In this document: piece after piece, positions 21,266-51,700 of the stretch | How positions within the stretch are numbered: position 1 is the stretch's first letter | How the letters are laid out: every line of letters begins with the position of its first letter | Assembly (NCBI GenBank): GCA_037447655.1 | Contig: JBBHKE010002644.1 | Location: 1 to 64,000 of the forward strand | DNA: 64,000 bases | From: Zygnema cylindricum | Taxonomy: Eukaryota; Streptophyta; Zygnematophyceae; Zygnematales; Zygnemataceae | Reading direction: 5' to 3' | Notes under the pieces: generated by a model | Told to the model about the DNA's origin: nothing | Database searches by the model: none | Seen by the model: only the letters and a program-made list of their open reading frames with translations | Program-made: the position numbers and the translations under genes

Positions 21266-21289
21266 GGTTACATCCTTGTCTCTGGTCTC

Positions 21290-24188: not shown

Positions 24189-24344
24189 ATGACTCAATCA
24201 AGGTTCGCCTTTTCTTGTCCCATTCTTATTTTGTCCGTTCTGCTGTCCACCGACCTATCTTCCGGATATTCTGTTCCTCCAACAATCTCCCGACAGAGGC
24301 AGGACACGCGTCAGGATATTCCAACAGAGACGCCAGCTGTCAAG
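24189..24344 (+). CDS. Signal-peptide exon (exon 1) of the left-arm gene
   Basis: Fifty-two codons. A hydrophobic core PILILSVLL follows a short basic start, then a Ser/Pro/Gln-rich stretch ends TPAVK before the donor GTAATT. It ends in phase 0, matching the phase-0 start of exon 26249. The intron is 1.9 kb, long for this gene, and the left limit of the inverted duplication (about 25815) falls inside it. The link to the downstream exons rests on phase, strand, and the fact that a secreted protein needs such an exon. Confidence 0.6.
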
Positions 24345-27300
24345 GTAATTCAACTTTACTCTGAAAGCATACCACATTTAATGTGGATGGTTTCAACCAA
24401 TAGGGGCACAAAGGAACGGCATCAGCCGTGTTAACTGATTCTCTCTTCTCCCTCTCCTCTCCTCTCTTTCCTTTTGCACAAAATTTCTTGATTCGATCTC
24501 TCCTCTTTAACCTCGAAAAGATCCTAGTCGCCGAAAACTGATAACTGATCCGTGATCGTCCATATTTTCCGAGCATTATTATACCATTTTAACTTTTCCA
24601 TTTTCTAAAATAGCCCGAATATGGAGTTTGTGTTACTTCAAGCTCTCCATTTTTCATCACTACTACTCGTGTATTGTGTATATTTGTAGCAATGGTAACA
24701 TTTTTTTTTTTTAATATGTAAATGTAATTCGTGTAAACCATATACGATTTTTATTTTATTTCGTGCTGACTTATAGTACGCACAAATGTTGTAAAGTAGG
24801 TCTAGTGTGAAATGGCAAGCATGGATATGCATTATATTTCTGCAAAAAAGTCAAAAAAATGGCTTGAAAAGCAGATTTAAAACCATGAGAGTAGAAAACG
24901 TTAATTAACTGGCAGGGTTGGTCCGACCAGTGTCCTCCATGGTAGCGCTAACATTGAGTTTTCATTTTCAAGGTACTGTACTGTAGCTTGGAGCCCTGCA
25001 TTATTATGTTAATTTGACGACCACATTTACGCAGGCAAAACGTGTGACACATGTCACACTGTGCTTGAGAATTCTAGTGCTCAACACTAATATGTCGTAG
25101 GGCTCCGATTGCGGCAGTTTTCGGGACCGTCCAGATAAGAATCCGCTAAATTCCTGCGGCCATAAACTGCCCAGTCATCGAAAAACACGTAATGACCACT
25201 TTGTGCCCCTTTTTGGGTCCTTGATGGAGCAGTGGCCTTATTATTGTAATTTCTGTGGCACTTGTACGGCTGGCACCGACGAATGCCAGGTCCTCCAACG
25301 CTAAGGACAAACGTTTATTGAAAATTTGAAAAGAGCCGTTTGTTTGGGTGGTCGTAGGTTATAATGTTGGCGGAGAAGAAAATTCATGGTCGATTTTTCC
25401 AATTGGTCGATGTTTTTCGATTGGTCGATTTTTTTTGTTTGGGAGTGAGCGTGCTCTAATTGGCCGGTTCGTTAACTTTTGCGGCAATCGGAGGGTTTCT
25501 CTGTTTCAAATGGAAATTTGCCCTCAAGGGAAAGTCCCAAAACAAAACATCCCATTCAAAAACATTCCCTTCAAAACAGTGTGTGTTTCGCCGTCGTATC
25601 TGTTAACTTTTTGGAAAGCGTAACAGAATTTGCGTAACTTTGTTTCGCCGTCGTATCTGTTAACGTTTTGGAAAGCGTAACAGAATTTGCGTAACTTTAG
25701 TGTGTTTCGCCGTCGTATCTGTTAACTTTTAGGAAAGCGTAACAAAATTTGCGTAACTTTTCAGCGGCGGGACGCTTAGCTTGTAGCGTCCCGACAGCTT
25801 CACACATTGAAATAAGTTCCGATGGAAATCGCGCCTCATACTGACACGTGTATTTGACCTCAGCTGACGGCTATAGTACGGTTTGCTCGAGTGCACGCCA
25901 TAGTATAAACATACCGTACGCACTTTATAGAATATGTATTTTGAAATAATCACCCTCGTTTTGTATTTGCATAGAACGCAGTTTTTGTTATGCTGACTTT
26001 TTTCAAATTAAAAAAATATGTTCCCTGTACAGTTTTGCAGTTCTCAATTTTCCTTTTTACAATTTAAGAAATGCACAAGATGAAACAAAAAACAATGCTT
26101 TTCATAGGTCTCGTCATATTTCTATCTTTTTGCAGATATGGTTTCATGTCTGTTTAAAGCTCGATAGATGGCAGATAAAACTCCTTAATTAAACGTATTT
26201 AAATGGTCATTAACTGAAAGACTCGTGTTTTGCTGACTTTGTGTGCAGTATAATGTAAACAAATTTTGTGAATTTCAAGTCGACGGTTTTCATGCCGATC
26301 TTTCTAGACGGCCTCTATGCAGGTGCCTTTTTTTAACCTCTTAACTCTAAGAATTAAACTGGAACTATCAAGTTATTCTATGTTTTAAAATGCATTTGCT
26401 AGACACTTAATCAGAAACGTCGTTGTTTTTCAGCTCATCTTGGTTTGTCTTGGTTGGTTCTAAAACGAAAAGATTTCCAGTCTCGTGTTTATATTGAATG
26501 GGCTTTTTAGCTTGGTAAATAACAAAGATGGTTTTTTTTTTTGGCAACTTTTCAGTGCGTTCTACGAGTGTACTGGTGGTCTTCTAGTAAAATACTCAAA
26601 TTGTAGTAATGGACTACTCTTCAGTTCACAAGCAAAGGGATGTGACCTTCCTCATTTATCTTCTTGCAAGGGGAATGTAATTACATCGAATCCGGCTAAT
26701 TCAGAACTTGACGATGAAGAAAAAGAAAGAGACATAGGAGGTCAAGAAGAACACCGAGATGGAGAAGGAGACGTGGAAGTAAACAACGCTAATGTTGATA
26801 ACGGTGTGCAATTGCTCGCAAAATCAAATTCTTCAACCGAATCTGCGTATCGCAAAGTGCTTGAGAAAATTTATCATCGTCGAGCCCTCAGAAACGACCC
26901 CACTAAGGGAAAGCATCCTCCGGGAGTCGGAAAACATCCTCCTGGAGTAGGAAAACATCCCTCAGGAATAGGTAAACGTCCTCCAGGAAAAGGAGATCAT
27001 CCTCCAGGGAAAGGAAAGCATCCTCCATTACGAAGAAGAGGACATCATCCTCCTGGAAAAGGAAGACATCCTCCGGGTAGAGGGAGACATCCTCCGGGAG
27101 TGGGCGGACATGGAGGAGACCCATGTTTTCGGGGACCACATGATCCTGCCCTTCCCAAAAAGAACAGAACGAGACCAGTCGGACCATGTTCACCAAGCCC
27201 CTCTTCCCCCCCCAATTCTCCTCCCCTCAACTCTCCTCCCCCACACACTCCCTCTCCTCATTCTCCTCCCCCCAACTCTCCCCCCCCACATTCTCCTCCC

Positions 27301-30300
27301 CCTAATTTCTCGCCTCCTGTTTACCCACCACCCATTTTCCCACCTCCATTTTTCCCCCCTCCTAGTTTTCCAAGTCCTCCCCCTCCTTTTTACGACGACT
27401 ACCCTCCACCGTGGATCTTAACTCCTCTTGTTCTCGTGGTGAGTGGTAAAGAGCGACGGAGAGAGGGAGGGAGAGAAGGTTTCATATACGTTGTGTTATG
27501 GGTTTTTTTACAAATAATGGGAGATGGCGAGTGAGTTTTTCAGTGTGGCTGTCTTGTTCAACATTCGGTGATAGATGTTTACTATACGGTTCAGTGTTTG
27601 AAATCTGTTGAAGTGTTTTTTTTTTTTCCTTTTTTTTTACTCTTTTAATGTTTTTTCTTATCTTCGTAAATGTGGTCCAGGTAGACGATGGCTGTTGCCA
27701 AGGGAGAAAAAATGGCACTTTTCAAAATTTTCTCGTCCTCCCGGCTTGCAGGTGGGTTGACTCATTTGACAATTATTCAAAATGTATAAATTATTAAATA
27801 ACTGATACATAATGAAAAAACCATATTCAAGTTGAAATACATTGATTGTATTTTTATGATTTGAATACAAGTGGTTGCAATCAAGAAACAACAGCAAATT
27901 GAGGTGATATTACCATTGCATTTTATGCTTTTATTGGATGAACAGTTTTAATTTTGCTGGAATCTTTTTGCTTTAACCACTGTAAATTTCTAGTGGATGA
28001 CAAAAAAGGGATCGATCAAAATTTATTAAATGAGCTACATAATGCTCCAAAATTTTCTCCGTTCAGGTGCCCTTTATGTTAGTCACTTCCGAACCTGGAT
28101 CAACAAATGACAATTGTGTTTCTTGACAATTTGTGTACTTCGAGAACCTTTTTGTCACTCAGTTAGTAAATGTTCTCCCCGGTCTTTTTAACCAAATGTT
28201 TTCAATTTTTCGTGTTACAGTGCTTTTTGTGAGTGTGATACCGATGGAAATTTTGTGAGCGGCGGAGTTTGTCCTGATGATCTTTTATGGAATCAAACAC
28301 TCGGAATTTGCGATTATTTTCCGTATGTAACTTGCGACAACGGAACATATAACACTCCACCTCCTCCTGCATTACCTGATCTGGTATGTATACCAAAAAC
28401 ATAAATGTAATTTATGAAGGAATTGGCAAATGCATCTATGAATTCATTTGAGCAAGTTTTCAGTGTTTCCATATCCGTGAAAATTAAAGCTAAAAAGGTT
28501 TTGAGGTAGAATTTGTAACTGAACTGTCTTTTGCATGCTATGTTTTTTGTAGTTAAAAATGTTGAAGATTCCCTAACAGTGAGACAACATGACAGGCATT
28601 TTACAATGCATAACAACTGACTCTTGCGTTTCCAAATTTGGGTATAATCAGCCGAACGACGGAGTTCTTACCACTGGATTTATCGATCATTATGCGGCAA
28701 TTGAAGACTGTGTTGCTCCTTGTATACCATTGGTTTTTACAACAGAAAATTACCTTTTCCGATACATGAGCGTTCCGAGCTCTAACATACGCGAAACCAT
28801 TTCTTGGGCAAACTACAGTTCACAAGTCCGTTACCAGGGGAATTGCAGTGAGTTCCCGAATTCCTTCATTTCCGAATCGTGTTAGTGTTTCCAAGTATCA
28901 TTTTGGCAAAATAACAGTGTTAGGACAGGAGCAGCACAAGCGAGAAAATGAGGAAAGAACAAGAAATCAAAAGGGAATTTGTATCTGACTTCAGTTGATT
29001 ACCTTTTTTTTGTTGCATTATTCAGGTGGATGCTGGGCATATGCTGTTGTGGAGGCGGTCGAGATTGCAATTAGCATCAATGACTATTCAGTGGGTTCTC
29101 CTCTTTCCGTACAACAAATGCTTGATTGCATGGCGCAATACGGAGTCACATGTGAAGGAGGAGATCCTCGGGATGCGTTAGAATACGTTGCAAAATGGGG
29201 AGGGCTTAATTACGAATCCGATTACCCTCAGTTATCGGGGGAAGTGAGAGCTGGAACTTGCAATACCACTCTGGTGAGGACTCTTGCAGAATTAATCTCC
29301 ATTTTTTGCAAAAACGACTCCGAGTTTATTATGCCTTATGTTAATGCCTGACACAGATAACCAGCAAGACATAACGTTTGTTTGTTGGCTTGTCTTTTTT
29401 TTTCAATGATTTTCATCAAGTATGCTTTTTTGAATTGTGCCGAGGTTTAAGTCTGTTTTTCCACGTGGTGTATTCCACACTTATGATGTCTGAAATCAGA
29501 CAAATTATAAACCCTAAAATAAGGCAATCCGTTGGCTGAATTTACTAAGAGTGTGGATGACACTAATGGTGGAGAAGGTACCGGCTGTTGGGTCAACAGG
29601 AGGGTGTTTATGACACAGGAAGGAGTAAAGTAGTAGGATGGGAAAGAATTTCGAGTGGAAATGCGACAGCACTCATGCAAGTTGTCAACAGTCAACCCGT
29701 AGTAATTGGGATTTCCACTTCGTGTTTATCGATATTTACATACACTTCGGTAAGTCAAACATTAGATGATTTAATGGAGGATCTCTAAAAGTAACTTCTG
29801 CTATCGCCATTGCTGCTCTCAGATTCGTCAGTGATTTTATTATTTTTCCGGATGTGAAGTGGGCACTGAATACACTCGCATCTTGATATCCTGAAACGTC
29901 AAATGCTTTAGAAGTTGCAAAAACTTAGAAATTGGATCAGTTTTGGATAACGGACACTGATGTATTCTTCAATTTTTTGCAGGGAATATTTAATGATACT
30001 GAGAATGAATGTGATGGTATTCCAAACCATAATATGCTTGTGATGGGATATGGCACGACGGATGACGGTGTTCCCTATTGGCTGGCCAAAAACTCATGGG
30101 GCACTGCATGGGGAGAAAGTGGGTATATTCGTTTGTTTCGTAACATGACTGGATTGGGCGTTGGAAATATGTACCAAATGCCACCAGTTTATCCCGTCAT
30201 CAACCCTTTTCCAACAGGATTTAGTGGGACTCTTGGAACAAGTCGGCGTCTCTTGAGTAAGTTTTTTCACTCCCAGTGTTAATTTTTCTTTTTGGTTGTA

Positions 30301-33300
30301 TATTATTTCTTGTGAGCTTTATTTTGTCGGATTCTTCCCGGAAGTTTAGGATAATAGCCGCCGAAAAAAAAAAGAACACACCCACTTTGTACATGAGTTG
30401 AATTATGTATATCGACGAAACAAAAATGACAATGGGACTTTTCTCGGACCCCATTTTTCAATATTTTTTCCATCCTCTCTTGACCAAGTTTTGATTGACT
30501 TTTGTCAATTTTTGTCACCAACATCGTCATAATGACGTTTTTCTGGGAGGGGGTTGTGGGTGTGAAACTGCAGACTATAACTATCCTCTCCCAAGCCCCA
30601 TAACATATGAGGACGCCCTCCCATCTATATCACCTGAACCAGAAAGTCAAATGCCATCAACATCCCCTTATTTTTTGCCATCTCTCTCTCCTTCCACCCT
30701 CTCCCCTGCTCCCTCTCCGTATGAAGACGCTTCTGGTCCGTCTCCGATTGACTCTCCCTTCCCAGCTCCATCTCAAAAGCCTGTACTCTATCCCATCGTA
30801 ATTCCATCTCCTCCTCCTCCTCCCCGCCACACTCCTCCTGACCAATCTCCTCCTCCTCCTCCACGCCACTCTCCTCCTGACCACTCTCCTCCTCCTCCCT
30901 GCCACACTCCTCCCGACCACTCTCCTCCTGACCACTCTCCTCCTCCTCCCTGCCACACTCCTCGAGACCACTCTCCTCCTGACCACTCCCCTCCTCCTCC
31001 TCCCCGCCACACTCCTCCTGACCACTCTCATCCTCCTCCTCCCCGCTACACTCCTCCTAACCACTCTCCTCCTCCTCCTCCCCCGTCTCCTTCTCCTCCT
31101 CCTCCCCCGTCTCCTTCTCCTCCTCCCCCCCCGTCTCCTTCTCCTCCTCCTCCCCCGTCTCCTTCTCCTCCTCCTCCCCCGTCTCCTTCTCCTCCTCCCC
31201 CATCTCCTCCTCCTTCCCCGTCTCCTCCTCCTCCTCCTCCTCCCCCGTCTCCTCCGCCTCCTCCATCTCCTTCTCCCCCTCCTCCCCCGTCTCCTCCTCC
31301 TCCCCCCCCGTCTCCTTCTCCTCCTCCTCCCCCGTTGCCTCCTCCACCCCCCTCTCCTCCTCCTCCTCCTCCCCCGTCGCCTCCTCCCCCCCCCTCTCCT
31401 TCTCCTCCTCCCCCGTCTCCTTCTCCTCCTCCTCCCCCGTCTCCTCCTCCACCTTCCCCGTCTCCTCCTCCTCCTCCATCTCCTTCTCCCCCTCCTCCCC
31501 CGTCTCCTCCTCGTCCCCCCCCGCCTCCTTCTCCTCCTCCTCCCCCGTCTCCTTCTCCTCCTCCTCCCCCCCCCCCTCTCCTTCTCCTCCTCCCCCGTCT
31601 CCTTCTCCTCCTCCCCCCCCCTCTCCTTCTCCTCCTCCTCCCCCGTCTCCTTCTCCTCCTCCCCCCCCCTCTCCTTCTCCTCCTCCTCCCCCGTCTCCTT
31701 CTCCTCCTCCTCCCCCCTCTCCTTCTCCTCCTCCTCCTCCCCCGTCTCCTCCTCCTCCTCCTCCTCCGTCTCCTCCTCCTCCTTCCCCGTCTCCTCCTCC
31801 TCCCCCGTCTCCTCCTCCTCCTCCCCCATCTCCTTCTCCCCCTCCTCCCCCGTCTCCTCCTCGTCCCCCCCCGTCTCCTTCTCCTCCTCCTCCCCCGTCT
31901 CCTCCTCCTCCCCCTCCATCTCCTTCTCCTCCTCCTCCCCCGTCGCCTCCTCCCCCCCCCTCTCCTTCTCCTCCTCCTCCCCCGTCGCCTCCTCCCCCCC
32001 CATCTCCTTCTCCTCCTCCACCGTCTCCTTCTCCTCCTCCTCCCCCGTCTCCATCTCCTCCTCCCCCGTCTCCATCTCCTCCTCCTCCCCCGTCTCCTTC
32101 TCCTCCTCCTCCCCCGTCTCCTTCTCCTCCTCCTCCCCCCCCGTCTCCTTCTCCTCCTCCTCCCCCGTCTCCTCCTCCTCCCCCATCTCCTTCTCCCCCT
32201 CCTCCCCCGTCTCCTTCTCCCCCTCCTCCCCCGTCTCCTTCTCCTCCCCCGCCTCCACCGCCAAAAGCAATCGGTAAATGCATCCCCAATCGACTTCTTA
32301 TGTTTGCAATGGGTGGTTAATACGGTTCTGTTTCGGGAGAACATTAAAATAGAGATTCGAAAAATAAAGTTTTTTACAGTATACGACTATGGCTTTACAA
32401 ATTTATATAATAATCAGTTAACAGAGCTTTCAATCTCAAGAAGAATTTTCTGTTTATTGACCTATTTGTTTCTGTGGTTTTTTATTTAGCTACAAGTAAC
32501 TGTTGAGTCGTAGAAGCGAGTAGTCTCTTTTTCTGCTTTCCATCGTCTTCAGTCCTCACTCTTTAGCAACTTCTTTCTATTATCCATTTACCTTTCTGGT
32601 GTCTTTCCCTTTCTTCTTTTTTCTTCTTCTATCTTTCCATCTCCTAATCGTCTTATTTTTTCATTTAACAAAATTATAGAATCGCAGACTTTACTCTTTG
32701 ATTTTACGTTTTTTTTACTTTAAGAAAGCTGGAGAAGGGACAAAAACGCAATAAACGGGAAAAAGACCTTCGTGCATGACAAGTAAAAGTTGGAGTGGTC
32801 AAACTCAGATGGGCAGTCGCTCTTTCTCCCTGCCTCTTTTATGTTCCCTCCTTCCTCTTCCTCCAACTATCATTTGTACAGCCTTCCCTCCTCTCCCGTC
32901 ACTCCCCTCCCTCATTATCAAGAGTTACAAAAACTGGACAAAGAGGGACGTGACCAAATGAGGAAGAAAAACCCTAATCCTATGACATGAAGATGTGATT
33001 TCAATTTTTACTGCTAAAGCCCTCATGATAAACTCGTCATGTTGAAACCCCTAATCCTGTGATTTTGACTGAAAAACCGAATCCTTTGAAATTGAACTGT
33101 GAAAATCCCAATTCTGCGACTTCCACTCTTTACTAATAAAAGCAATGATGATCTAATCTTGACTACAGTGACCGCCTGCGATGGAGGAATCATCTATAAT
33201 ACGTGTGGAGGAGGAATATGTGTGCCTGATCCAGCAAATGTGACAAAGTACACGTGTAACTGTACCAGTGGCTACACAAATGTGAACAGCACCGGCGGAA

Positions 33301-36300
33301 ATGAAATTTGCACGCTCAGTAAGTTCTTTGAACTGATATTGTGATTGATATGGTTTAAAACAGTTCAAACAATCATTGAAAACGAAAGTTTACTAGCAGT
33401 CATGAATTCAGAAGCAGCCAGTCAGTCAACTAGGATTTTGAGTGTTATTAACCATGGAACCATGAAATCTTACCACCAGGAATGCAATTAGAAGCAGCCA
33501 GAGGATGAAGACTGCAAACATTCATTGACAGAACCATATGTAGAAGCACATACAGGAAAACAAACTCACACATTTTGTTTTTACATTAGTTCATGTGGAG
33601 AACTTCTGACAAGGGGAAAAGAGCGAGGAAATGTAGAACATCATGCGTGTTACATCCTGACTGTTTATGATGTACGTTTTGTGATGCAGTTGATGTTTGC
33701 GGAGCAAAATCATACAATCCTTGTGGTATTGGCACGTAAGTTTTTCCGTTCGCTTTCTCCGTTTTTCCTTTAAAAATAAGGTTTTCATTCACATTATTAC
33801 TTCTAAGGCAATTGAATAGGCCTAGAGTGACGATTGAGTAGAAATCAGTTTCGTGGTTGGCAATAAGAGAAATGTACTGTCAGACTTAGGGTTCACAGGT
33901 AGGTTTCATGTTTAAAGGCTTCACGTTTAGGGTTCACGTTTGGGTTCAGATTTTCTACCCATGAAGATGAAGCTTTTGCAATGATGTTTTCCATCCAGGT
34001 GTGTGAATGACAACGAAGGAAGCTATACTTGCGATTGTACTACGTTCCCTGGATTCACTTCCTATGTGAGGTCAACTGACGGTTCTGCAACTTGTGGACC
34101 TGGTATGACTCACTTTTACCAAAGTGAAAAAAAAAGTCTGTCAAATCTAGTGTTTTAGAATTGCAGAGTATAAAATTCAACAATAAAAATGTGCATAATT
34201 ATAAATTCAACGATCTACAGTTGCAGCATACAAAATCTAACGATGGAAATATGAGTAAGGTCCCAAGGGTCTAGATTACAGAGAATTAAATCCACCGACC
34301 ATTTAGTGAAATGTTGAACCTAATGGTCGGGAATTTCAGAGTATAAATCTGAGCATGACAAATTGCAAAATGTCAACTACATCAGTTGAAAAATTGCAGA
34401 GTATCGAATCCAAAAGATAAAAAAATGCATAATGTCAAATCCAGCAGTTTAAAATTGCAGAGCATCGAAAATTGCAAAATGTTAAATCCAACAGTCGAGA
34501 ATTTTAGAGTATCAAGGCCAACGATTAAAAATTGCAAAATGTCAAATTCAGCGGCCAATAATTACAGAGTAATAAATTGAAGTGGCTGACCAATATGTGA
34601 ATCTTGCAAATGTCTTGGCAGCTGAGATTGCTTCTCTGGAAAATACCACATACACTGTTCCTGATGGAGGGCTCACTTGTGCAAGTATCGCTGAAATAAA
34701 CCTTTTGGATCCCATTGATCTTCTGTACCTCAATCCGGTATGTTTTCCACTCGTTCCTTCTTTCTTTCTCTATCTTTTTTTGAATGGTGCATATCTATTC
34801 GCTTGGATAAATCTCAAAATTAATTTGAGTTTTTTTTTGAAAGTGCCGCAACCATTTTCACAACATTTTCAGCCATTAAGGTTAAACGACTAGCAATCAT
34901 GCATAAAGTCAAACGAAATAAAATTTCGACGACTCTCTGTAATGGTTCGCAATTGTGGATTTTTTGCAGCATCTTGATCCTGATTGTGGAAATAGTACAA
35001 CTGCATCATTAATCTCTGAAGGAACGGTTATTGCAACTGGGCCTGTCGCTAGAGAGGGAATCACATGTGGAGTGATCTACACAACTCAGGCGGTAAGCCA
35101 TGCGCATTTTTACCCACCGAGTTCATGACAAATGGCTCATTTCTTTAGCAACATTAGCGGGTCCCTTGTTTTCCCCACCAAACTTATTACAAACGTTACA
35201 TAATTTGTTAATCCCTTTTGTACCCACCAAATGTGTTACATATGTTCACATCTCTTTAGCACAAGCGGTGAGGTATGTGGCTATTTGTTTCTATAAACAT
35301 CGAAACGACTGAGAGGTGCTCAGCATTTGGAGTAGGATCTAACAATCACTAACACACGTATTTGGGTTTGATAGACTTCATAACACTGATCAGATGAGCA
35401 ATCATAAATCGCCAATCTAAACAAACTGTGTTAACAACACTAAAACAGTCCTCAGTTAATAACGTGGAGTTTTGGCATTTTGCCCTGTGTTGTACCAAAT
35501 TTGGGTATAAACTACGATAAGCTTCATTGTTTGGTTTCAAACCAAATTTACACTCACTTTCAAGAACAGATATGTACTGTTACATAAATTGGGTATGACG
35601 AGCTAAATAAAGCAAAATAACTGAGACGAAAGAGAGTCCCCCATTTTAAATGGAGCAAAACTGCTAATGGAATTTTAATAACGATTCACTTAATTAAAAC
35701 TACTACTTGGATACGAATGATATGAAGCCGAGAAATTCTGAAATGGTTCATTGTGAATCGCCATTACAATTAACACTTATTCTGTGCTGGGTGTTCTTGG
35801 CCTTATTACTCTTATGACACTAGTTGTATAAGCAATCATAACTTATCAACTCCATTCACACCTACATTAATATCACTAAAAAAGCCCTCGCAATAATATC
35901 TTTACTTTAATAGCAATTCACGGTGTACCGGAAAGTAAACAAAAAGAAAAAAGCTTAATGTATATTTTGTATCATTATGCTGCGCATTAGAGTGCACATG
36001 TACAATGGAAAATAAAAAAATGCATCCATGATTTTTATGCCGGTTTATTGGCACATACTAAATATATACAGAGAGAGAGGGGAGAGATCAAGAGAGGTGC
36101 TGGTGCGTTGGGCACATCTGTTGTTAAAGGTTTATTATGTTGAAATTTTGAGTTTCTAACCTGTTATAGTGAAACTAATTCATGTCTTCTTTGTGGCTTA
36201 CAGACCGACACATGTAACAGTCTTGTGGACCTTTTTACTGCCCCATCAAAGTCTCTCAGTTTGGAAACTTTGACAGCCATCAATCCATCCAGTGGTTTTG

Positions 36301-37337
36301 ACTGCACCAATCCAGATGCGCCTCTGGAAGCAGATTTGCAGGTATATTCCCTCTCCCACAGCCTCTCCCTCTCCCTCTCCCTCTCCCTCTCCCTCGCCCT
36401 CTCCCTCTCCGTCTTCATTTCTCTCTCTCATATTTTTCATTATTTCTTTGCAGATATGTGTGGAGAACAGTACTACCTACCTGAACCAGGAATGTGCGTC
36501 ATACTATCAAATAACAACTGAGGATCAAAGTAAAACTTGTGAATTTTTATATGAAAATATAACAACGGCACTCGGATTTTTTTCGTTAAATCCGGGACTT
36601 CGCTGCGGCAATCTGATTCCTGGAGAACTTGTAAGAAATTACAATCCTTTTGTATTTCTGGTTATGTATGTGGGATTTCAATGGCCGATGTGGGGAATCT
36701 TTGTAGTAAAAATGAGGTTAACATGAGAATATGTTTCGGGAAATCTGGATTTCGTTGGTGGATGTAGGACTGTGTTACATTTCATCAGTCAGATTTTTAT
36801 AATTACAATTGAAAACTCCCTTTTATATACATTGAATTCCTTGATCAATCACATCGACTAATTGTTTTAGTTTAATAAAGGTCATGTTAAGTCTGTCAGG
36901 TTCTGTGATTGCTCCAGATTTTGTTCTCAATATAACCGTTCCTTTTCTAGAGTTCAACGCGTAAAAACTAAATGGAATACAATTGATAATTTCCCTCCCT
37001 TCTTTTCTTTTCTCTTTTTCTATTTTTCCAGGTTTGTGTTCTTCCAGCCGATCCTCAAGCTTTTGGAGCCAGTGGCTGTACTACTTGTACCACAACGAAC
37101 ATACAAAAGAAAATCACCAAACTAGTGACCATAACGAAAGGAGTGAGTTGCTTGACTTTTTTAACAAGTTCACAGACATTTAAATGTAGTCTTGGTATTT
37201 ATAAATGCCTTAATGGAGGAGCCGGTTGTTCTGACACAAAACTCACAGTCAGCAAAAAAGTATGCGGTCCGGGAACGGCTTATACCTTTCCAACTACAGC
37301 CACGTGTCCTTCTTCTCTGGCGCTTTCCGTAGGTTGA
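24189..37337 (+). CDS. Left-arm copy: secreted CBM14 - papain - Pro-rich stalk - EGF - LysM protein, 18 exons
   Basis: Exons: 24189-24344, 26249-26322, 26556-27438, 27681-27751, 28221-28387, 28596-28847, 29026-29273, 29600-29749, 29983-30256, 30574-32273, 33169-33318, 33690-33735, 33999-34102, 34583-34737, 34970-35092, 36204-36341, 36454-36630, 37032-37337 (stop TGA). Total about 1,720 residues. The 28387/28596 junction is ambiguous: the usual donor at 28384 leaves phase 0, which meets a stop, whereas a donor four bases later fits acceptors at 28584 or 28596. Exon 1 gives a signal peptide (MTQSRFAFSCPILILSVLLS). Modules then run: two six-Cys CBM14-like chitin-binding domains flanking a GKHPPG/proline linker, a papain-type peptidase with an intact Cys/His/Asn triad, a Ser-Pro stalk, two EGF-like domains, and LysM-like repeats. 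Likely a secreted or vacuolar protease that binds a chitin- or GlcNAc-type polymer. Exon 10 is out of frame by one base in this sequence. Confidence 0.8.
25585..25761. repeat. Three tandem copies of a 57-62 bp unit beside the arm boundary
   Basis: The unit beginning GTTTCGCCGTCGTATCTGTT and ending TTTGCGTAACTTT occurs at 25585-25641, 25642-25703 and 25704-25761 with few differences. It ends about 50 bp before the inverted duplication starts and is absent from the right flank. Confidence 0.85.
26249..28387 (+). CDS. Chitin-binding section of the left-arm gene: two CBM14-like domains and a proline linker
   Basis: Domain 1 is split over exons 26249-26322 and 26556 onwards: NKFCEFQVDGFHADLSRRPLC then FYECTGGLLVKYSNCSNGLLF and CDLPHLSSC, six Cys spaced as in peritrophin-A/CBM14. 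Domain 2 is split the same way over 27681-27751 and 28221 onwards: CCQGRKNGTF, LPACSAFCECDTDG, GGVCPDDLLWNQTLGICDY, FPYVTC. In both the intron falls in phase 2 right after the Leu/Ala-Cys, which suggests an ancient tandem duplication of a two-exon domain. Between them lie an acidic stretch, GKHPPGVG-type repeats (about 26908-27110), and SPPPNSPPPHS-type repeats. Confidence 0.8.
28596..30256 (+). CDS. Papain-type (C1A) cysteine peptidase section of the left-arm gene
   Basis: Four exons. The oxyanion Gln and catalytic Cys are in RYQGNCSGCWAYAVVEAVEI, which is split by an intron at 28848. Substrate-pocket sequence follows (LSVQQMLDCMAQYG, CEGGDPRDALEYV), then a central QPVVIGIS strand, the catalytic His in IPNHNMLVMGYG and the catalytic Asn in AKNSWGTAWGESGYIRL. 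All key residues are present. A standard I29 inhibitory propeptide is not seen; the about 80 residues before the Gln (VFTTENYLFRYMSVPS) do not match it, so control of activation must differ. Confidence 0.88.
30574..32273 (+). CDS. Hydroxyproline-rich-type stalk exon, left arm, with a frame shift
   Basis: It begins in frame (NYNYPLPSPITYEDALPS) and passes through HTPPDHSPPPP repeats into SPSPPPPP repeats like extensin or algal wall HRGP stalks. Near 31565-31580 a run of C bases moves the reading from Ser-Pro to Leu/Arg-rich (LLLLPRLLL), which continues to the exon end. There the frame needed for the next exon is the Pro frame (PPPPPKAI, donor GTAAAT, phase 1). The exon is therefore one base short, or two over. 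A miscounted or unstable C run is the simplest cause. Confidence 0.75.
33169..34102 (+). CDS. Two EGF-like domains of the left-arm gene
   Basis: EGF 1 is one exon (33169-33318): ACDGGIIYNTCGGGICV, then YTCNCTSGYTN and NEICTL. EGF 2 spans 33690-33735 and 33999-34102: DVCGAKSYNPCGIGTCV, then EGSYTCDCTTFPGFTS and SATCGP. Each has six Cys in EGF order. They follow the proline-rich stalk directly and have Asn-Gly/Asn-x-Ser/Thr sites, so they are probably extracellular. Confidence 0.8.
34160..34575. repeat. Imperfect intron minisatellite
   Basis: About a dozen diverged units of 30-45 bp resembling AATTGCAGAGTATCAAATCC fill most of the intron 34103-34582. The right-arm intron (about 45950-46350) holds a similar array with a different unit order and count. 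Each unit contains a potential TTGCAG acceptor. Confidence 0.7.
34583..37337 (+). CDS. LysM-like C-terminal section of the left-arm gene
   Basis: Five exons. Repeat 1: YTVPDGGLTCASIAEINLL, LLYLNPHLDPDCGN, EGTVIATG. Repeat 2: GITCGVIYTTQATDTCNSL, LETLTAINPSSGFDC, ADLQICV. Repeat 3: ECASYYQITTEDQSKTCEFL, FSLNPGLRCGNLIPGEL, VCV. The last exon adds a Cys-rich unit (KGVSCLTFL, CLNGGAGCSDTKLTV, KVCGPGT) that may be a fourth, diverged repeat. The LNPxLxCxNLIPGxxVCV pattern is typical of Cys-containing eukaryotic LysM domains, which bind GlcNAc polymers. Domain assignment is by eye. Confidence 0.7.
35749..35925. mobile_element. Old TIR-element copy in a left-arm intron
   Basis: It starts CATTGTGAATCGCCATTAC and ends TTAATAGCAATTCACGGTG followed by TA. 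The matching copy lies at the same intron position in the right arm (44200-44392), so it was present before the inverted duplication. Confidence 0.6.
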
Positions 37338-38412
37338 GAAAATACTAAGTGAAGCATAATGTTGTAGGTTTTAGGTGATAGATTTCTTCGTTTTGTTATA
37401 TCACTTTTTTATACGTCTGAAACGAGTCACTAGTATTGAACATTGAGGGTTGAATTTTTTTGACGATATTTATTAGGAGACTAACCCACAAATTAGGTGG
37501 GTGTTAGCGGAACCGTTAACATTTTGTTAACGAACACGTTAACGTTTTGTTAATGTGATAGTTTTTTACCGTTTGAGTTATTTGTTTATTAGATACTTGA
37601 TGTCCATTGAACTGGATCAATGGTTTAGTGTTGACGTTTTATTAACACTTTTGTACATTATTTTTTTGTTAGTGGTTTCATATGGCATCCGACTTTTTTT
37701 TTCTAGGTCAAATTACGGTGTAATTAAAGTTTTTATCCACAGAGGTAGTGCTATTTATTGATCTATCTTTCAATGTAAGTGTATATATTCGAGGAATATA
37801 CATCCGATGACTATTGTTTCTTCTCATGATGATAAAAGGATTTCGTTTTCCAATTTGTAGCCAATTAAATGGATTGGAGTTAATGATTTTATAACATTAT
37901 TTAATCTGTCCCCCTTTTATTTTTTTGTTTTGGTTCTGCATTTTTTGTCGCATGTGTTTTGCCTTTCACTTCTGTACTTTGTACTTAGTTTGTTATCCAT
38001 CCCGTTTTCATGAAGTTTATGGGTAGTTTATACTTTGGGCTTGCGAGATGACTTTAAGACCAGAAAGATAAAACGATTTCTTAAAAATTGTAGCTTCAGC
38101 ATCAATGATTCTTTACTCTTTGAAACATAGTTGTCCAATTTGTGATTTTTTTTACTTTTTTACAAATATTCACTATTTTTTCTTGATTTTGAGCTTTTCG
38201 TAAATTTAGTATACTTTTCGCTGTACTGCAAAAATGTACAGAAAATTTTTGAAAACTTAAGCCATATCCCTCACATGAATACAAAAATGACTATTTTTTG
38301 CTTCAATTGTGAATTTGTGAATTTCATCCATCCCACATGGTTCATTTTCCGCTCCCACGCTTTCTCTTCCTCTCACCCTCCCAATTCCCATGTCGTCTTT
38401 GACTTATTAACC
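37338..38412. other. 3' flank of the left-arm gene and inner end of the arm
   Basis: Contains GTTAAC-rich sequence at 37508-37556, conserved in the right arm at 42480-42540. Homology to the right arm fades near 37985. No gene is seen. Confidence 0.5.
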
Positions 38413-42715: not shown

Positions 42716-45700
42716 TCAACCTACGGAAATTCCCGTCACAGTAGTACACTTACTTGCAACTGTATTTGCTGTTCCCGGGCCGCATACTGTTTTTCCAACT
42801 GTGAGCTTTTTGTCAGTACAACCGGCTCCTCCATTAAGGCATTTATAAAGAGTAAGACTACATTTAAATTTTGTTGTACTCGTTAAAATACTCAAACAAC
42901 TCACTCCTTTTGCTATGGTCACTTTTTTGGTGATTTTCTTTGCTATGTTCGCTGTGGTACAACCGGTACAGCCACTGGATCCAAAAACTTGAGGATCTGC
43001 CGGAAGAACACAAACCTGAAAAAAGAGAAAAAAAGAAAAAAAAAAAGGGAGGGAAATCAGTTGTGTTCGATTTAGTTTTTACGATTTGTACTCTAGGAAA
43101 GGAACGGTTATATTGAGAACAAAATCTGGAGCAATCACAGAACCTGACAAGACTTAACATGACCTTTATTAAACTAAAACAATTAGTCAATGTGGTTGAT
43201 CAAGGAATTCAATGTATATAAAAAGGAGATTTCAATAGTAATTATAAAAATCTGACTGATGAAATGTAACCAAGTTCTACATCCACAAATGAAATCCAGA
43301 TTTCCCGAAACATACTCTCATATCAACCTAATTTTTACTACAAAGATTCTCCACATCGGCCATTAAAACCCCACATACATAACCAGAAATACAAAAGGAT
43401 TGTAATTTCTTACAAGTTCTCCAGGAGTCAGATTGCCGCAGCGAAGTCCCGGATTTAACGAAAAAAATTCGAGTGCCGTTGTTATTCCTTCATACAAAAA
43501 TTCACAAGTTTTATTCTGATCCTCGGTTTTAATTTGATAGTATGACGCACACTCCTGGTTCAGGTAGGTAGTACTGTTCTCCACACAAATCTGCAAAGAT
43601 ATAACGTAAAATATGAGAGAGAGAGAGAGAGATGGATGAAGAGGGAGCGGGAGAGGGAAAGGGACAGGGAGAGGGTCTGGGAGAGGGAGTGGGAGAGGGT
43701 CTGGGAGAGGGAGAGGGAGAGGGTGTGGGAGAGGGAATATACCTGCAAATCTGCTTCCAGAGACGCATCTGGATTGGTGCAGTTTAAACTGCTGGATGGA
43801 TTGATGGCTGTCAAAGTTGCCAAACTGAGAGACTTTGATGGGGCAGTAAAAAGGTCCACAAGACCGTTACATGTGTCAGTCTGTAAACCACAAAGAAAAT
43901 ATGAATTAGTTTCACTATGACAGGTTAGAAACTCAAAATGTCAACAGATGAACCAACATAATAAACAACAGATAAACAACATTATAAACCTTTTACAAAA
44001 GATGTGCGCTACGCACAAGCACCTCTCGCTCTCCCCCCTCTCTCTCTTACATATATAGTATGCGCCAACCAACCGATACAAAAACCACGGATGCATTTCC
44101 TTATTTTCCATTCTACAGATGCACTCTGATGCGCAGCATAATGATACAAAAGTACATATGTTTTTTTCTTTTTTTTTACTTTCGAGTTTATATCGCCTAC
44201 ACCAAGAATTTCTATCAGAGAAAAAATCTTATTGCAAGGGCTTTTTTAGTGATATTAATTTAGGTGTGAAATGGAGTTGGTAATTTATAATCACTTATAC
44301 AACTAGTGCCATACACGTATTAAGGCCAAAAACAACCGGCACAAAAACACACGGCACAGAATAAGTGTTAATCGTAATGGCGATTCACAGTGAACCATTT
44401 GCGTCAACAGAATTTCTCGGCTTCATATCCTTCGTATCCATGTAGTAGTTAAGTGAATCGCTATTAAAATTCCATCAGTAGTGACAGTAGTGTCAGTAGT
44501 GTGTCAGTAGTTTTGCTCCATCTTAAATGGGGGACTTTCTTTCGTCTCAGTTATTTTGCTTTTTTCAGCTCGTCATACCCAATTTATGTAACAGGACATA
44601 TCTGTTCTTGAAAGTGAGTGTAAATTTGACTTGAAACCAAACAATGAAGATTATCAGTGCTTGTACCCAAATTTGGTACAACACAGGGCAAAATGCCAAA
44701 ACTCCACATTATGAACTTGAGGACTGTTTTAGTGTCGTTAACAACGTTCAATTACATTGGCGATTTATGATTGCTCAACTGATCAGTGTTATAAAGTCTG
44801 TCAAACCCAAATACGTGTGTTAGTGATTGTTAAATCTTAATCCAAACGCCGAGCACAAATTGCTAAACTAAATCTTTTTGGATGCGTATTAAAGTTAAGG
44901 TCAATAATACCAATTTAGGTTTTAGCGACTTATATAACACTTTTTAAATAAGTGTTAAAACCACTACTTTATAATTGTTTGTTAAAAAACCATTGATCAG
45001 ATTGTTGTTATTAACTCTAATCACGATAGAAGCTATAGATTTAGCCTAACCACTTAAAATTAAACAAATATAACAATCTCAAGCTACTTCCGACCAACCC
45101 ATGCAAACCTAAATTTGTTGTATTCCTCTCAGTTGTTTCGATGTTTATAGAAACAGAAAGCCACATACCTCACCGCTTGTGCTAAAGAGATGTGAACACA
45201 TGTAACACATTTGGTGGGTACAAGAGGGATTAACAAATTATGTAACGTTTGTAATAAGTTTGGTGGGGAAAACAAGGGACCCGCTAATGTTGCTAAAGAA
45301 ATGAGCCATTTGTCATGAACTCGGTGGGTAAAAATGCACATGACTTACCGCCTGAGTTGTATAGATCACTCCACATGTGATTCCATCTCTAGCGACAGGC
45401 CCAGTTGCGACAACCGTTCCTTCAGAGATTAATAATGCAGTTGTACCATTTCCACAATCAGGATCAAGATGCTGCAAAAAATCCACAATTGCGAACCATT
45501 ACAGAGAGTCATTGAAATTTTATTTTGTTTGACTTTATGTATGATTACAAGTCTGTTTAACCTTTGCAGGGCTGAAAATGTTGTGAAAATGGTTGAAAGA
45601 AAACTTAAAGAAAACTGGTGATTGGAGAAAAAGATGCTATCGACATGATATCAGTATACGGCTGCACTTTAAAAAAAAAAACTCAAATTAATTTTGAGAT

Positions 45701-48700
45701 TTATCCAAGCGAATAGATATGCACCATTCAAAAAAAGATAGAGAAAGAACGATGGCACAAGTGGAAAACATACCGGATTGAGGTACAGAAGATCAATGGG
45801 ATCCAAAAGGTTTATTTCAGCGATACTTGCACAAGTGAGCCCTCCTTCAGGAACAGTGTATATGGTATTTTCCAGAGAAGAAATCTCAGCTGCAAAGATA
45901 TTTGCAAGATTGGCATATTGGTCAGCCACTTAAATTTATGACTCTGTAATTATCGGCCGCTGAATTTGACATTTTGCAATTTTGAATCGTTGGCCTTGAT
46001 ACTCTAAAATTCTCGACTGTTGGATTTAACATTTTGCAATTTTCGATGCTCTGCAATTTTAAACTGCTGGATTTGACATTGCTCTGCAATTTTTAAACTG
46101 ATGTAGTCGACATTTTGCACTTTGTCATGCTCAGAAAAGATACTCTGCAATTCCCAACCGTTGGATTCGACATTTTGCTAATTTCCATCGTTGGATTTTT
46201 TACTCTGTAATCTAGACGCCTGGACCTTATTCATATTTCCATTGCTAGATTTTGTATGCTGCAACTGTAGATCGTTAAATTTATAATTATGCACATTTTT
46301 TTTAAGTTGAATTTTATACTCTGCAATTCTCAATCACTAGATTTGACAGATTTTTTTTTGGACTGTGGTAAAAGTGAGTCATACCAGGTCCACAAGTTGC
46401 AGAACCGTCAATTGATCTCACATAGGAAGTGAATCCAGGGAACGTAGTACAATCACAAGTATAGTTTCCTTTGTTGTCATTCACGCACCTGGGTGGAAAA
46501 CATCATTGAAAAAGCTTCATCTTCATGGGTACAAAATTTGAAAACGTGAATCCTAAACCTGAACCCAAACGTGAAGCCTAAACGTGAAGCCTTAAACATG
46601 AACCTACCTGTGAACCCTAAGTCTGACAATACATTGCTCATATTGCCAACCACGAAACTGATTTCTACTCGTCATCACTCTAGGCCTATTCAATCGCCTT
46701 AGAAGTAATAATGTGAATGAAAACCTTACTACAAATGAAAAAACGGAGAAAGCGAAACGGAAAAACTTACGTGCCAATACCACAAGGATTGTATGATTTT
46801 GCTCCGCAAACATCAACTGCATCACAAAACGTACATCATAAACAGTCAGGATGTAACACGCATGATGTTCTACATTTCCTCGCTCTTTTCCCCTTGTCAG
46901 AAGTTCTCCACATGAACTAATGTAAAAACAAAATGTGTGAGTTTGTTTTCCTGTATGTGCTTCTACATATAGTTCTGTCAATAAATGTTTGCAGTCTTTA
47001 TCCTCTGGCTGCTTTTAATTGCATTCCTGGTGGTAAGATTTCATGGTTCCATGGTTAATAACACTCAAAATCCTAGTTGACTGACTGGCTGCTTCTGAAT
47101 TCATGACTGCTAGTAAACTTTCGTTTTCAATGATTGTTTGAACTGTTTTAAACCATATCAATCACAATATCAGTTCAAAGAACTTACTGAGCGTGCAAAT
47201 TTCATTTCCGCCGGTGCTGTTCACATTTGTGTAGCCACTGGTACAGTTACACGTGTACTTTGTCACATTTGCTGGATCAGGCACACATATTCCTCCTCCA
47301 CACGTATTATAGATGATTCCTCCATCGCAGGCGGTCACTGTAGTCAAGATTAGATCATCATTGCTTTTATTAGTAAAGAGTGGAAGTCACAGGATTGGGA
47401 TTTTCACAGTTCAATTTCAAAGGATTCGGCTTTTCAGTCAAAATCACAGGATTAGGGGTTTCGACATGACGAGTTTATCATGAGGGCTTTAGCAGTAAAA
47501 ATTGAAGTCACATCTTCATGTCATAGGATTAGGGTTTTTCTTCCTCATTTGGTCACGTCCCTCTTTGTCCAGTTTTGTAACTCTTGACAATGAGGGAGGG
47601 GAGTGACGGGAGAGGAGGGAAGGCTGTACAAATGATAGTTGGAGAAAGAGGAAGGAGGGAACAAAAAAGAGGCAGGGAGAAAGAGCGACTGCCCATCTGA
47701 GTTTGACCACTCCAACTTTTACTTGTCATGCACGAAGGTCTTTTTCCCGTTTATTGCGTTTTTGTCCCTTCTCCAGCTTTCTTAAAGTAAAAAAAACGTA
47801 AAATCAAAGAGTAAAGTCTGCGATTCTATAATTTTGTTAAATGAAAAAATAAGACGATTAGGAGATGGAAAGATAGAAGAAGAAAAAAGAAGAAAGGGAA
47901 AGACACCAGAAAGGTAAATGGATAATAGAAAGAAGTTGCTAAAGAGTGAGGACTGAAGACGATGGAAAGCAGAAAAAGAGACTACTCGCTTCTACGACTC
48001 AACAGTTACTTGTAGCTAAATAAAAAACCATAGAAACAAATAGGTCAATAAACAGAAAATTCTTCTTGAGATTGAAAGCTCTGTTAACTGATTATTATAT
48101 AAATTTGTAAAGCCATAGTCGTATACTGTAAAAAACTTTGTTTTTCGAATCTCTATTTTAATGTTCTCCCGAAACAGAACCGTATTAACCACCCATTGCA
48201 AACATAAGAAGTCGATTGGGGATGCATTTACCGATTGCTTTTGGCGGTGGAGGCGGGGGAGGAGAAGGAGGAGAAGGAGAAGTGGGAGGAAGGGGAGAAG
48301 GAGATGGGGGAGGAGGAGGAGGAGAGGGGGACGGGGGAGGAGGAGGAGGAGAAGGGGGGGGAGGGGGAGGAGGAGACGGGGGAGGAGGAGGAGGAGAAGG
48401 AGACGGGGGAGGAGGAGGAGGAGAAGGAGACGGGGGAGGAGGAGGAGGAGAAGGAGACGGGGGAGGAGGAGGAGGAGAAGGAGACGGGGGAGGAGGAGGA
48501 GGAGAAGGGACGGGGGAGGAGGAGGAGGAGGAGGAGACAGGGGAGGAGGAGGAGGAGAAGGAGACGGGGGAGGAGGAGGAGGAGGAGAAGGAGACGGGGA
48601 AGGAGGAGGAGAGGGAGACGGGGGAGGAGGAGGAGGAGGAGAAGGAGACGGGGGGGGAGGAGGAGAAGGAGACAGGGGGGGAGGAGGAGATGGAGACGGG

Positions 48701-51700
48701 GGGGAAGGAGGAGAAGGAGACGGGGGGGGAGGGGGAGAGAGAGACGGGGGAGGAGGAGAAGGAGACAGCGGAGGACGATTATGGCGAGGAGAAGGAGAAG
48801 AGTGGGCAGGATGACTGTGGGGGGGATGAGAAGGAAAGTGCGGAGGATGACTGTGGCGAGGAGAATGAGGAGAGTGGGCAGGATGACTGTGGGGGGGATG
48901 AGAAGGAAAGTGCGGAGGATGACTGTGGCGAGGAGAATGAGGAGAGTGGGCATGATGACTGGGGTGGGGAAGAGGAGGGAGAGACTGGGCAGGAAGACTG
49001 TCGCGAGAAGGAGAAGGAGAGTAGGCATGATAAGGCTCTTGAGATTGAGCTGGGAAGGGAGAGTCAAGCGGAGGTAAACCAGGAGGGACTTCAAACAGTG
49101 GGGGAGCAGGGGAGGAGGTGGAAGGAGTGAGAGATGGCAAAAAATAAGGGGATGTTGATGGCATTTGACGTGCTGGTTCAGGCGATATAGATGGGAGGGC
49201 GTCCTCATAAGTTTTAGGGCTCGGGGGAGGATAGTTGTAGTCTGCAATTTCACACCCACAACCCCCTCCCAGAAAAACGTCATTATGACGATGTTGGTGA
49301 CAAAACTTGACAAAAGTTAATCAAAACTTGGTCAAAAGAGGATGGAAAAAATGTTGAAAAAGGGGGTCCGAGAAAAGTCCCATTGTCATTTTTGTTTTGT
49401 CGATATACATAATTCAACTCATGTACAAAGTGGGTGTGTGTTTTTTGTTTCGGCGGCTATTATCCTAAACTTCCGGGAAGAATCCGACAAAATAAAGCTC
49501 ATAAGAAATAACATACAACCAAAAAGAACAATTAACACTGGGAGTGAAAAAACTTACTCAAGAGACGCCGACTTGTTTTAAGAGTCCCACTAAATCCTGT
49601 TGGAAATGGGTTGATGACGGGATAAACTGGTGGCATTTGGTACATATTTCCAACGCCCAATCCAGTCATGCTACGATACAAACGAATATACCCACTTTCT
49701 CCCCATGCCGTGCCCCATGAGTTTTTGGCCAGCCAATAGGGAACACCGTCATCTGTCGTGCCATATCCCATCACAAGCATATTATGGTTTGGAATACCAT
49801 CACATTCGTTTTCGGCATCATAAAATATTCCCTGCAAACAATTAAAGAATACATCAGTATCCATCATCCAAATCTGATAGATAAACTGTGAAAATCCTCC
49901 ATTTGCTGTGGTCCAATTTCTAAGTTTTTGCAACTTCTAAACCATTTGACGTTTCAGGATATCAAGATGCGAGTGTATTCAGTGCTCACTTCACATCAGG
50001 AAAAATAACAAAATCACTGACGAATCTGAGAGCAGCAATGGCGATAGCAGAAGTTACTTTTAGAGATTTTCCATTTAAACACCTAATGTTTGACTTACCG
50101 AAGTGTATGTAAATATCGATTCACAAAAAGTGGAAATCCCAATTACTACGGGTTGACTGTTGACAACTTGCATGAGCGCTGTCGCATTTCCACTCGAAAT
50201 TCTTTCCCATCCCACTACTTTACTCCTTCCTGTGTCGTAAACACCCTCCTGTTGACCCAACAGCAGGTACCTTCTCCACGATTAGTAGGATCCACACTCT
50301 TAAAAAAACCAGTCAATGGATTGCCTTATTTTGGGATTTAGAATTTGTCTGACTTCAGACATCATAAGTGTGGAATACACCACGTGGGAAAACAGACTTT
50401 AACCTCGGCACAATTCAAAAAAGCATACTTGATGAAAATCATTGAAAAAAAAAGACAAGCCAACAAACAAACGTTATGTCTTGCTGGTTATCTGTGCTAG
50501 GTAAAGTTGGGTATCGGGTAAAATCATAACGCGATAAGTTCGATACTCGATATATCGATTATCGATCGGCCAGAGGCCTCGATATATCGCACCGGGACCA
50601 ACATATTATATCGCGATATATTTGGTACAAGGTGGGTGTCCGTACAGACCCAGTACAGAATATCATACGAAAAATATTTAACGCGCGCCACGAGGGGGGC
50701 TTTTGGAAAAAAAAATTGACCTAGCGTCTCTTCGATATATCGCGATTGAAATATATCATGATATCGGCCAATATATCGCAGAAATATCGTGATATTAAGC
50801 TCCTCGATATATCGAAGGGGTAAATCGATTATCGGGTACCCAAATTTAGGTACATATCGAATATCGGCAAGGGGCCCTCGATACCCAACACTAGTGTTAG
50901 GCATTAACATAAGGCATAATAAACTCGGAGTCGTTTTTGCAAAAAATGGAGATTAATTCTGCAAGAGTCCTCACCAGAGTGGTATTGCAAGTTCCAGCTC
51001 TCACTTCCCCCGATAACTGAGGGTAATCGGATTCGTAATTAAGCCCTCCCCATTTTGCAACGTATTCTAACGCATCCCGAGGATCTCCTCCTTCACATGT
51101 GACTCCGTTTTGCGCCATGCAATCAAGCATTTGTTGTACGGAAAGAGGAGAACCCACTGAATAGTCGTTGATGCTAATTGCGATCTCGACCGCCTCCACA
51201 ACAGCATATGCCCAGCATCCACCTGAATAATGCAACAAAAAAAAGGTAATCAACTGAAGTCAGATACAAATTCCCTTTTGATTTCTTGTTCTTTCCTGAT
51301 TTCTTGTTCTTACCTCATTTTCTCGCTTGTGCTGCTCCTGTCCTAACACTGTTATTTTGCCAAAATGATACTTGGAAACACTAACATTAATTTGCGATTC
51401 GGAAATGAAGGAATTCGGGAACTCACTGCAATTCCCCTGGTAACGGACTTGTGAACTGTAGTTTGCCCAAGAAATGGTTTCGCGTATGTTAGAGCTCGGA
51501 ACGCTCATGTATCGGAAAAGGTAATTTTCTGTTGTAAAAACCAATGGTATACAAGGAGCAACACAGTCTTCAATTGCCGCATAATGATCGATAAATCCAG
51601 TGGTAAGAACTCCGTCATTCGGCTGATTATACCCAAATTTGGAAACGCAAGAGTCAATTGTTATGCATTGTAAAATGCCTGTCATGTTGTCTCACTGTTA

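Follow-up and report, generated by a model that had tools for sequence, protein, structure and literature searches.

Could a single gene encode a secreted protease that carries CBM14 modules, a papain domain, an extensin-like stalk, EGF-like domains and LysM-like repeats in one chain, and would such a chain be unusual? The question is raised by the first 64,000 nucleotides of contig JBBHKE010002644.1 from Zygnema cylindricum (the window), an intron-rich eukaryotic stretch with a mean GC content of about 40%, for which an original prediction had described a gene of this kind. The gene, referred to here as copy A, is a single plus-strand gene that starts at 24.19 or 26.1 kb and ends at 37.337 kb, and a second copy, B, lies beside it (Table 1). 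With slightly better than even confidence, we propose that these two adjacent tail-to-tail copies encode a secreted multi-domain papain-type cysteine protease of the green lineage, probably of a streptophyte alga, that would be tethered to glycans outside the cell. The predicted protein establishes the parts and their order, and secretion of the protease would follow from the families to which the parts belong. The predicted observation stands for the CBM14 and papain modules, and stands in part elsewhere, as the EGF and LysM modules fall under their Pfam cut-offs and the stalk contains a change of frame.

Domain composition

Several features of the predicted protein emerge from its spliced exons. 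The CBM14-like modules at the head are matched by Pfam CBM_14 in copy A (5e-7 and 30.2 bits for domain 1, 3.3e-5 and 24.4 bits for domain 2; cut-off 22.1), and over copy B in two stretches at 34.9 bits; they also have six shared cysteines, so that both the profile and the cysteine pattern of CBM14 are present. None of ten shuffles that preserve the cysteine positions (five per domain) matches CBM_14 at E up to 1, and a PDB sequence search with CBM14-1 retrieves the chitin-binding domain of chitotriosidase (1.8e-4) as well as tachycitin (0.032), relatives from which we infer that the modules may bind chitin. The prediction of two CBM14-like domains is thus borne out. Because both modules have an intron at the same codon and in the same phase (C-S/A-F-x-E-C, the slash marking the intron), the sequences suggest that CBM14-1 and CBM14-2 arose by duplication of one module.

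The papain domain matches Peptidase_C1 (Pfam, 3.6e-45 in copy A) and has the catalytic Gln, Cys, His and Asn residues (QGNCSGCW, NHN, NSWG), and its triad is intact, as was predicted. An inhibitory propeptide (I29 or C1) is common in papain family C1A, without being strictly defining. No I29 propeptide appears at E up to 1 in any of the 11 members scanned (copies A and B and nine relatives), which implies that activity would be under some other control, a possible candidate being the Cys-containing segment that precedes the papain domain.

The two EGF-like domains have six cysteines each, with gaps of 8, 4, 11, 1, 15 and 7, 4, 9, 1, 18, and this spacing is that typical of EGF domains. The Pfam EGF matches (0.004 and 17.8 bits in copy A, 16.7 bits in copy B) are both under the cut-off of 21.5, such that the predicted EGF character is retained for the cysteine spacing and not for the profile. 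For the tail we used a LysM family profile built from eight relatives, with 2000 shuffles of the copy A tail as the control (best 8.9 bits). Repeats 1–4 score 9.8, 29.9, 25.8 and 3.7 bits in copy A and 9.7, 25.2, 30.0 and 13.8 bits in copy B; in copy A repeats 2 and 3 are therefore clear, repeat 1 is marginal, and repeat 4 is not distinguishable from shuffles. The LysM domains of the relatives P0001 and P0008 that pass the Pfam cut-off align with window repeats 1 and 4. In the AlphaFold model of P0001 the tail contains four strand-helix-helix-strand units, modelled with a confidence too low to be trusted (mean predicted local distance difference test score 42.9), and a Foldseek search with this model is uninformative for domains other than papain, the titles among the 50 matches listed being those of the papain family.

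A second copy of the gene

Eighteen exons of copy A were placed by hand between 24189 and 37337, and their phases are consistent with the exception of the stalk. When the exons of copy A are projected onto copy B, all 17 of exons E2–E18 are present with GT-AG at every acceptor and donor, and the copies are 81–96% identical by segment. Exon lengths are equal in 14 of the 17, and the other three differ by multiples of three, with copy B longer by 39 bases in exon 3 and shorter by 690 in exon 10 and by 6 in exon 18, the last measured to its own stop codon (the raw alignment end gives +13). Outside the stalk there is no stop or frameshift in either copy (16 exons, E2–E9 and E11–E18), and over these 16 exons nonsynonymous divergence (dN) is 0.039 and synonymous divergence (dS) 0.081, with corresponding values of 0.016 and 0.067 in the papain domain.

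Divergence is very uneven along the copies. The introns differ by 0 to 9.4%, with a near-identical stretch around 32.2–33.7 kb, a pattern which suggests gene conversion. The last exon (37032–37337 in copy A, 42716–43015 in copy B) is 18% divergent, and the two introns that precede it are about 8–9% divergent. Positive selection on this exon is unsupported (dN/dS 0.75, Fisher p 0.39); its dS of 0.26 exceeds that of most compared exons several times over, which we read as probable evening out of the rest of the gene by conversion.

Because copy B retains exons E2–E18, and because the relatives P0001 and P0034 (see below) hold the parts in one protein, we read copy A as encoding one chain, and the duplicate gene together with relatives having the same order of parts supports the single gene originally proposed. 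Once homology is used to place the junction (28383/28652), the break between genes that had been feared at 28.39–28.59 kb proves to be an ordinary GT-AG intron. These positions replace an exon 6 start at 28596 with a GTATAC donor at 28388, P0001 being of the same length there, and the corrected join reads PPPPALPDL followed by PNDGVLTTGF, compared with PPPPSRNGLANGGILTTGY in P0001. The Pfam scan of copy A, the first PDB search and the first homology search used the old 28596 join.

The stalk and the first exon

Two defects are apparent in the gene model. The stalk exon is 1700 bases long in copy A (30574–32273) and 1010 in copy B (48232–49241), each one base off the required length class, and the Ser-Pro frame shifts inside the stalk in both copies, in the same direction and at different places, in copy A at a run of 11 C near 31566. 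The papain and LysM-like parts of the window chain are therefore joined through spliced exons with a frame change between the two. An ordinary GT-AG intron behind the change is ruled out for copy A, where this was checked, as the sole AG in 31061–32273 is at 32266. We prefer to explain the frame changes by assembly error in the C-rich repeats, rather than by real frameshifts or recoding. Thus the predicted extensin-like stalk is present as a Ser-Pro exon 10, and a continuous frame through it is not.

The second defect lies at the start of the gene. The first exon proposed originally, at 24189, enters exon 2 in phase 0, and no counterpart of this signal-peptide exon was found near copy B. A rival signal-peptide-like open reading frame (ORF) at 26095 is present in both copies (at 54284 in copy B), and would need a weak GTTTAA donor.

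Relatives and the family pattern

Relatives were collected with three protein searches, which cover entries of 0.55–1.75 times the query length (one of the three scored the 7989 candidates sharing most words) and list 49 distinct proteins. No entry near-identical to the window protein was found in these length-limited searches, the best being 44% identical in the first, and CBM_14 is in the precomputed Pfam lists of none of the 49. Two of the relatives resemble the window protein especially closely. P0034 (1317 aa, a transcript ORF in EukProt, named as a complete TRINITY ORF) has the order HPPG-CBM14-papain-stalk-EGF-EGF-LysM, sharing with the window protein a signal-peptide-like start, HPPG repeats, CBM14, papain, Ser-Pro stalk, paired EGF-like domains and LysM repeats, with 30% identity over 36% of it; it differs in having one CBM14 (21.2 bits, cut-off 22.1) and Ser in place of the catalytic Cys. 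P0001 is a predicted protein of 976 aa with the order CBM14-papain-EGF-EGF-LysM, presumably encoded by one uninterrupted ORF because contigs of its source, lgn, are up to 4387 bases long. It is 45% identical to the window protein and shares HPPG repeats, a CBM14-2-like domain, a papain with its active site, paired EGF-like domains and four LysM-like repeats (one of which passes Pfam), whereas it lacks CBM14-1, has a short Pro/HPPG linker instead of the Ser-Pro stalk, and has a CBM14 that Pfam does not call. The latter scores 39.5 bits with a profile of the two copy A CBM14 domains and that of P0034 (1000 Cys-preserving shuffles reach 17.5), a score that reflects homology to copy A domain 2, which is inside the profile, and is not independent proof of CBM14. 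The joining of CBM14 and EGF in one chain, originally called unusual, is consequently less so, given that the architecture recurs almost entire in P0034 and for the most part in P0001.

Other relatives share the core and have different heads. Closterium proteins (P0008, P0011, P0044, P0047, P0035 and P0036; identified by source name) are like the window protein in having papain, EGF-like domains and a LysM-like tail with no I29 listed, but are without CBM14; P0044 and P0047 have a legume lectin head, P0036 a leucine-rich repeat (LRR) region with a legume lectin, P0035 a legume lectin with EGF-like parts, and P0008 and P0011 no head. P0049 (SM000013S26461), which we take from its gene-identifier prefix to be from Spirogloea, likewise has a papain with catalytic residues, two EGF-like domains and LysM repeats, but lacks a lectin head or stalk and has an extra Cys-rich C-terminus. 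Of the 11 members scanned, seven have a Pfam LysM above cut-off, each together with peptidase C1 (P0001, P0008, P0011, P0034, P0044, P0047 and P0049), and copies A and B, P0035 and P0036 do not. In a comparison of 13 papains, which includes P0012 (no LysM-like tail shown) and excludes P0022, P0039 and P0040, the catalytic Cys is kept in nine and is Ser in four (P0034, P0008, P0011 and P0016), and none of the 13 has lost the His or the Asn. The architecture is therefore not unique, and belongs to a family with a papain-EGF-EGF-LysM core and a head of CBM14, legume lectin or none, the members named here being those of streptophyte algae.

We note that GxHPPG repeats, found in window exon 3 and in P0001 and P0034, are also N-terminal in otherwise different proteins, namely P0041 (a Marchantia LRR protein) and P0042 (presumably Mesotaenium, by its gene-identifier prefix); GxHPPG is perhaps a streptophyte wall-binding motif.

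The papain tree contains 19 of 26 proteins, P0007, P0012, P0035, P0036, P0037, P0039 and P0040 being dropped for papain matches of at most 151 residues, and the tail tree contains the 13 proteins with LysM-like repeats, the P0034 row lacking the start of the first EGF. The CBM14 carriers A, B, P0001 and P0034 are grouped in both (89/95 and 90/88 respectively, neither starred), and placement of P0034 with the Closterium group is not rejected (p 0.182). These tree results are tentative because of long branches.

Proposed function

If the chain is expressed as predicted, its stalk (exon 10 corresponds to about 560 residues in copy A and 335 in copy B) would be a hydroxyproline-rich, glycosylated, rigid spacer; the remainder of the copy A protein has 20 N-glycosylation sequons. 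The CBM14 head and the LysM tail would both bind polymers of N-acetylglucosamine (GlcNAc) and thereby anchor the protease to a surface bearing GlcNAc, on which the papain domain would cut nearby proteins. The likeliest surfaces would be those of chitin-walled microbes (e.g. chytrid fungi), or else the alga's own wall, through its GlcNAc-bearing glycoproteins. The relatives share the papain-EGF-EGF-LysM core and differ in the front module, so that the choice of target probably lies with the head.

More broadly, we suggest, with a little less than even confidence, that streptophyte algae have a protein family, of extracellular proteases together with pseudo-proteases, that is directed at glycans and combines a fixed papain-EGF-EGF-LysM core with an exchangeable head (animal-type CBM14, legume lectin, LRR and lectin, or none). 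Members without the catalytic Cys may be pure surface-glycan binders or decoys, and the whole may be a modular secreted defence or wall-sensing system that was later lost in vascular plants. This family pattern is of greater interest than the single gene. Should it hold, the closest algal relatives of land plants would have a system for recognition and cleavage outside the cell that is open to experiment, assembled from modules known mainly from work on animals (CBM14, EGF) and on plant immunity (LysM, papain-like proteases).

Alternative explanations

A number of observations count against a one-chain, glycan-tethered protease. The stalk frame change interrupts the chain in both copies as they are assembled, and the one-chain reading of copy A draws on genomic sequence, copy B and relatives. 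The PF00008 cut-off of 21.5 is reached in none of the 11 members scanned (best 21.1, in P0035, with none listed for P0036), and Pfam LysM gives no match on the own sequence of either copy, for which reason the repeats are termed LysM-like; the LysM prediction thus holds for repeats 2 and 3 by the relatives-based profile and not by Pfam. The dN and dS values between the copies mix histories and are blurred by likely gene conversion, a single clade of all EGF/LysM-tailed papains is neither shown nor rejected (approximately unbiased test, p 0.376), and the presence of Ser for Cys in 4 of 13 papains means that proteolysis may not be the common function of the family. The frame change would also end upstream translation in both copies, as expected if two genes were misread as one, an upstream CBM14-papain-stalk protein and a downstream EGF-LysM lectin. 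We consider this very improbable, since papain and the EGF-LysM tail are in one protein in P0001, P0034, P0044, P0047, P0049 and the Closterium proteins P0008 and P0011, and exon 11, which has no in-frame Met, continues the phase of the 3′ part of exon 10, although a start exon at 32.3–33.1 kb was not sought. It is likewise unlikely, if less so, that one or both copies are decaying pseudogenes with a real stalk frameshift and, in copy B, a lost N-terminal exon. Such decay could explain why both copies change frame, why the 24189 exon was not found near copy B and why the last exon is 18% divergent, but the other 16 exons (E2–E9 and E11–E18) are free of stops and frameshifts in either copy, the indels are multiples of three, papain dN is 0.016 compared with a dS of 0.067, and the frame changes lie at different places in low-complexity C-rich repeats in which assembly errors are likely.

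A further alternative retains the secreted protease and changes its target to the alga's own extracellular matrix, with a role in wall remodelling, mating or cell release, and with CBM14 and LysM binding GlcNAc-bearing glycoproteins or other glycans. We regard this as a credible possibility, short of probable. The extensin-like stalk is in keeping with it, as is the occurrence of the HPPG motif at the N-termini of the Marchantia LRR protein and of an S41-like protein from Mesotaenium (23.4 bits, cut-off 24), whereas two different modules of GlcNAc-polymer type on one chain fit a chitin-like target, and streptophyte walls are not known to have such a polymer. We favour defence against chitin-walled microbes, somewhat ahead of remodelling of the alga's own wall.

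Features of the window

The exons of copy A and the extent of copy B are collected in Table 1. Outside them, ORFs of a Ty1-copia retrotransposon (gag, integrase, reverse transcriptase) occupy 59633–63953 (minus strand), with a reverse transcriptase fragment at 20877–21377 (plus strand). A possible NOG1-like GTPase exon is at 8841–9200 (plus strand; NOG1_N 21.5 bits, cut-off 22.9), and an ORF in the spacer between the copies (38146–38607, plus strand) has a zinc-finger-like CxxC-H-C motif by eye and no Pfam match. Scans of the 64-kb window for tRNA genes and Rfam families gave no matches.

Table 1. Coordinates of copy A exons and of copy B in the window
Feature	Position	Strand	Remarks
Candidate exon 1 (original prediction)	24189..24344	+	Signal-peptide-like; donor AAG/GTAATT; phase 0 into exon 2; unsettled
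Alternative signal-peptide exon, MLFIGLVIFLSFCRYGFMS	26095..26151	+	Weak donor GTTTAA, phase 0 into exon 2; putative splice use
Exon 2: CBM14-1 first half	26249..26322	+	Identical in copy B
Exon 3: CBM14-1 second half, acidic linker, GKHPPG repeats, Ser-Pro-rich segment	26556..27438	+	Pfam CBM_14; copy B +39 bp
Exon 4: CBM14-2 first half	27681..27751	+	Intron after same codon and phase as CBM14-1
Exon 5: CBM14-2 second half and PPPP linker	28221..28383	+	Pfam CBM_14 24.4 bits; donor GTATGT, phase 0
Exon 6: pre-papain segment and papain first part	28652..28847	+	Junction set by P0001 alignment; GT-AG in both copies
Exon 7: papain, catalytic Cys	29026..29273	+	QGNCSGCW spliced across E6/E7
Exon 8: papain	29600..29749	+	
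Exon 9: papain, catalytic His (NHN) and Asn (NSWG)	29983..30256	+	
Exon 10: Ser-Pro stalk	30574..32273	+	Frame change near 11-C run at 31566
Exon 11: EGF-like domain 1, six Cys	33169..33318	+	
Exon 12: EGF-like domain 2, first part	33690..33735	+	
Exon 13: EGF-like domain 2, second part	33999..34102	+	
Exon 14: LysM-like repeat 1, main part	34583..34737	+	Family profile 9.8 bits; aligns with P0001 Pfam LysM
Exon 15: LysM-like repeat 1 end, repeat 2 start	34970..35092	+	
Exon 16: LysM-like repeat 2	36204..36341	+	Family profile 29.9 bits
Exon 17: LysM-like repeat 3	36454..36630	+	Family profile 25.8 bits
Exon 18: degenerate LysM-like repeat 4 and stop codon	37032..37337	+	Aligned with Pfam LysM of Closterium P0008
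Copy B, exons 2–18	42716..54130	-	Tail-to-tail with copy A; protein 93% identical, stalk excluded

Comparison with known systems

The original prediction had likened the gene to cysteine proteases and chitinases of Volvox joined to LysM modules by Pro-rich stalks. No volvocine name occurs among the named proteins of the 49 listed, and the Volvox work was not found in the literature searched; what is in print, in the parts of the paper available, is a peptidase_C1 with LysM in Chlamydomonas (PMC2728734). The interpretation placed on the gene is thus upheld for the architecture, the triad and the single gene, and loses ground as regards its being unusual and its likeness to Volvox.

The passages available describe C1A with LysM in Viridiplantae and not in vascular plants (PMC6362431), the green-algal joining of peptidase C1 to LysM not having been kept in angiosperms or vascular plants (PMC2728734, PMC6362431). 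They also describe EGF with GNA or ricin-B lectins (PMC6362431), and CBM14 as predominantly animal and fungal (PMC5122149). No report of a fixed papain-EGF-EGF-LysM core with CBM14 or legume-lectin heads and loss of the catalytic Cys was found in the literature sampled, mostly outside subscription papers and supplementary tables, and this pattern is absent from the passages of PMC6032398, PMC5122149, PMC6362431 and PMC2728734 that were available. The green-algal C1A-LysM proteins join peptidase C1 to LysM in one chain, as the window gene is predicted to do with its LysM-like repeats, but neither CBM14 nor EGF is named for them in the main-text passages of PMC2728734 and PMC6362431. The combination of papain and LysM in green algae is therefore known, and what appears new, as far as the literature found extends, is the CBM14 head in the plant lineage, the fixed core with differing lectin heads, and the loss of the catalytic Cys in several members.

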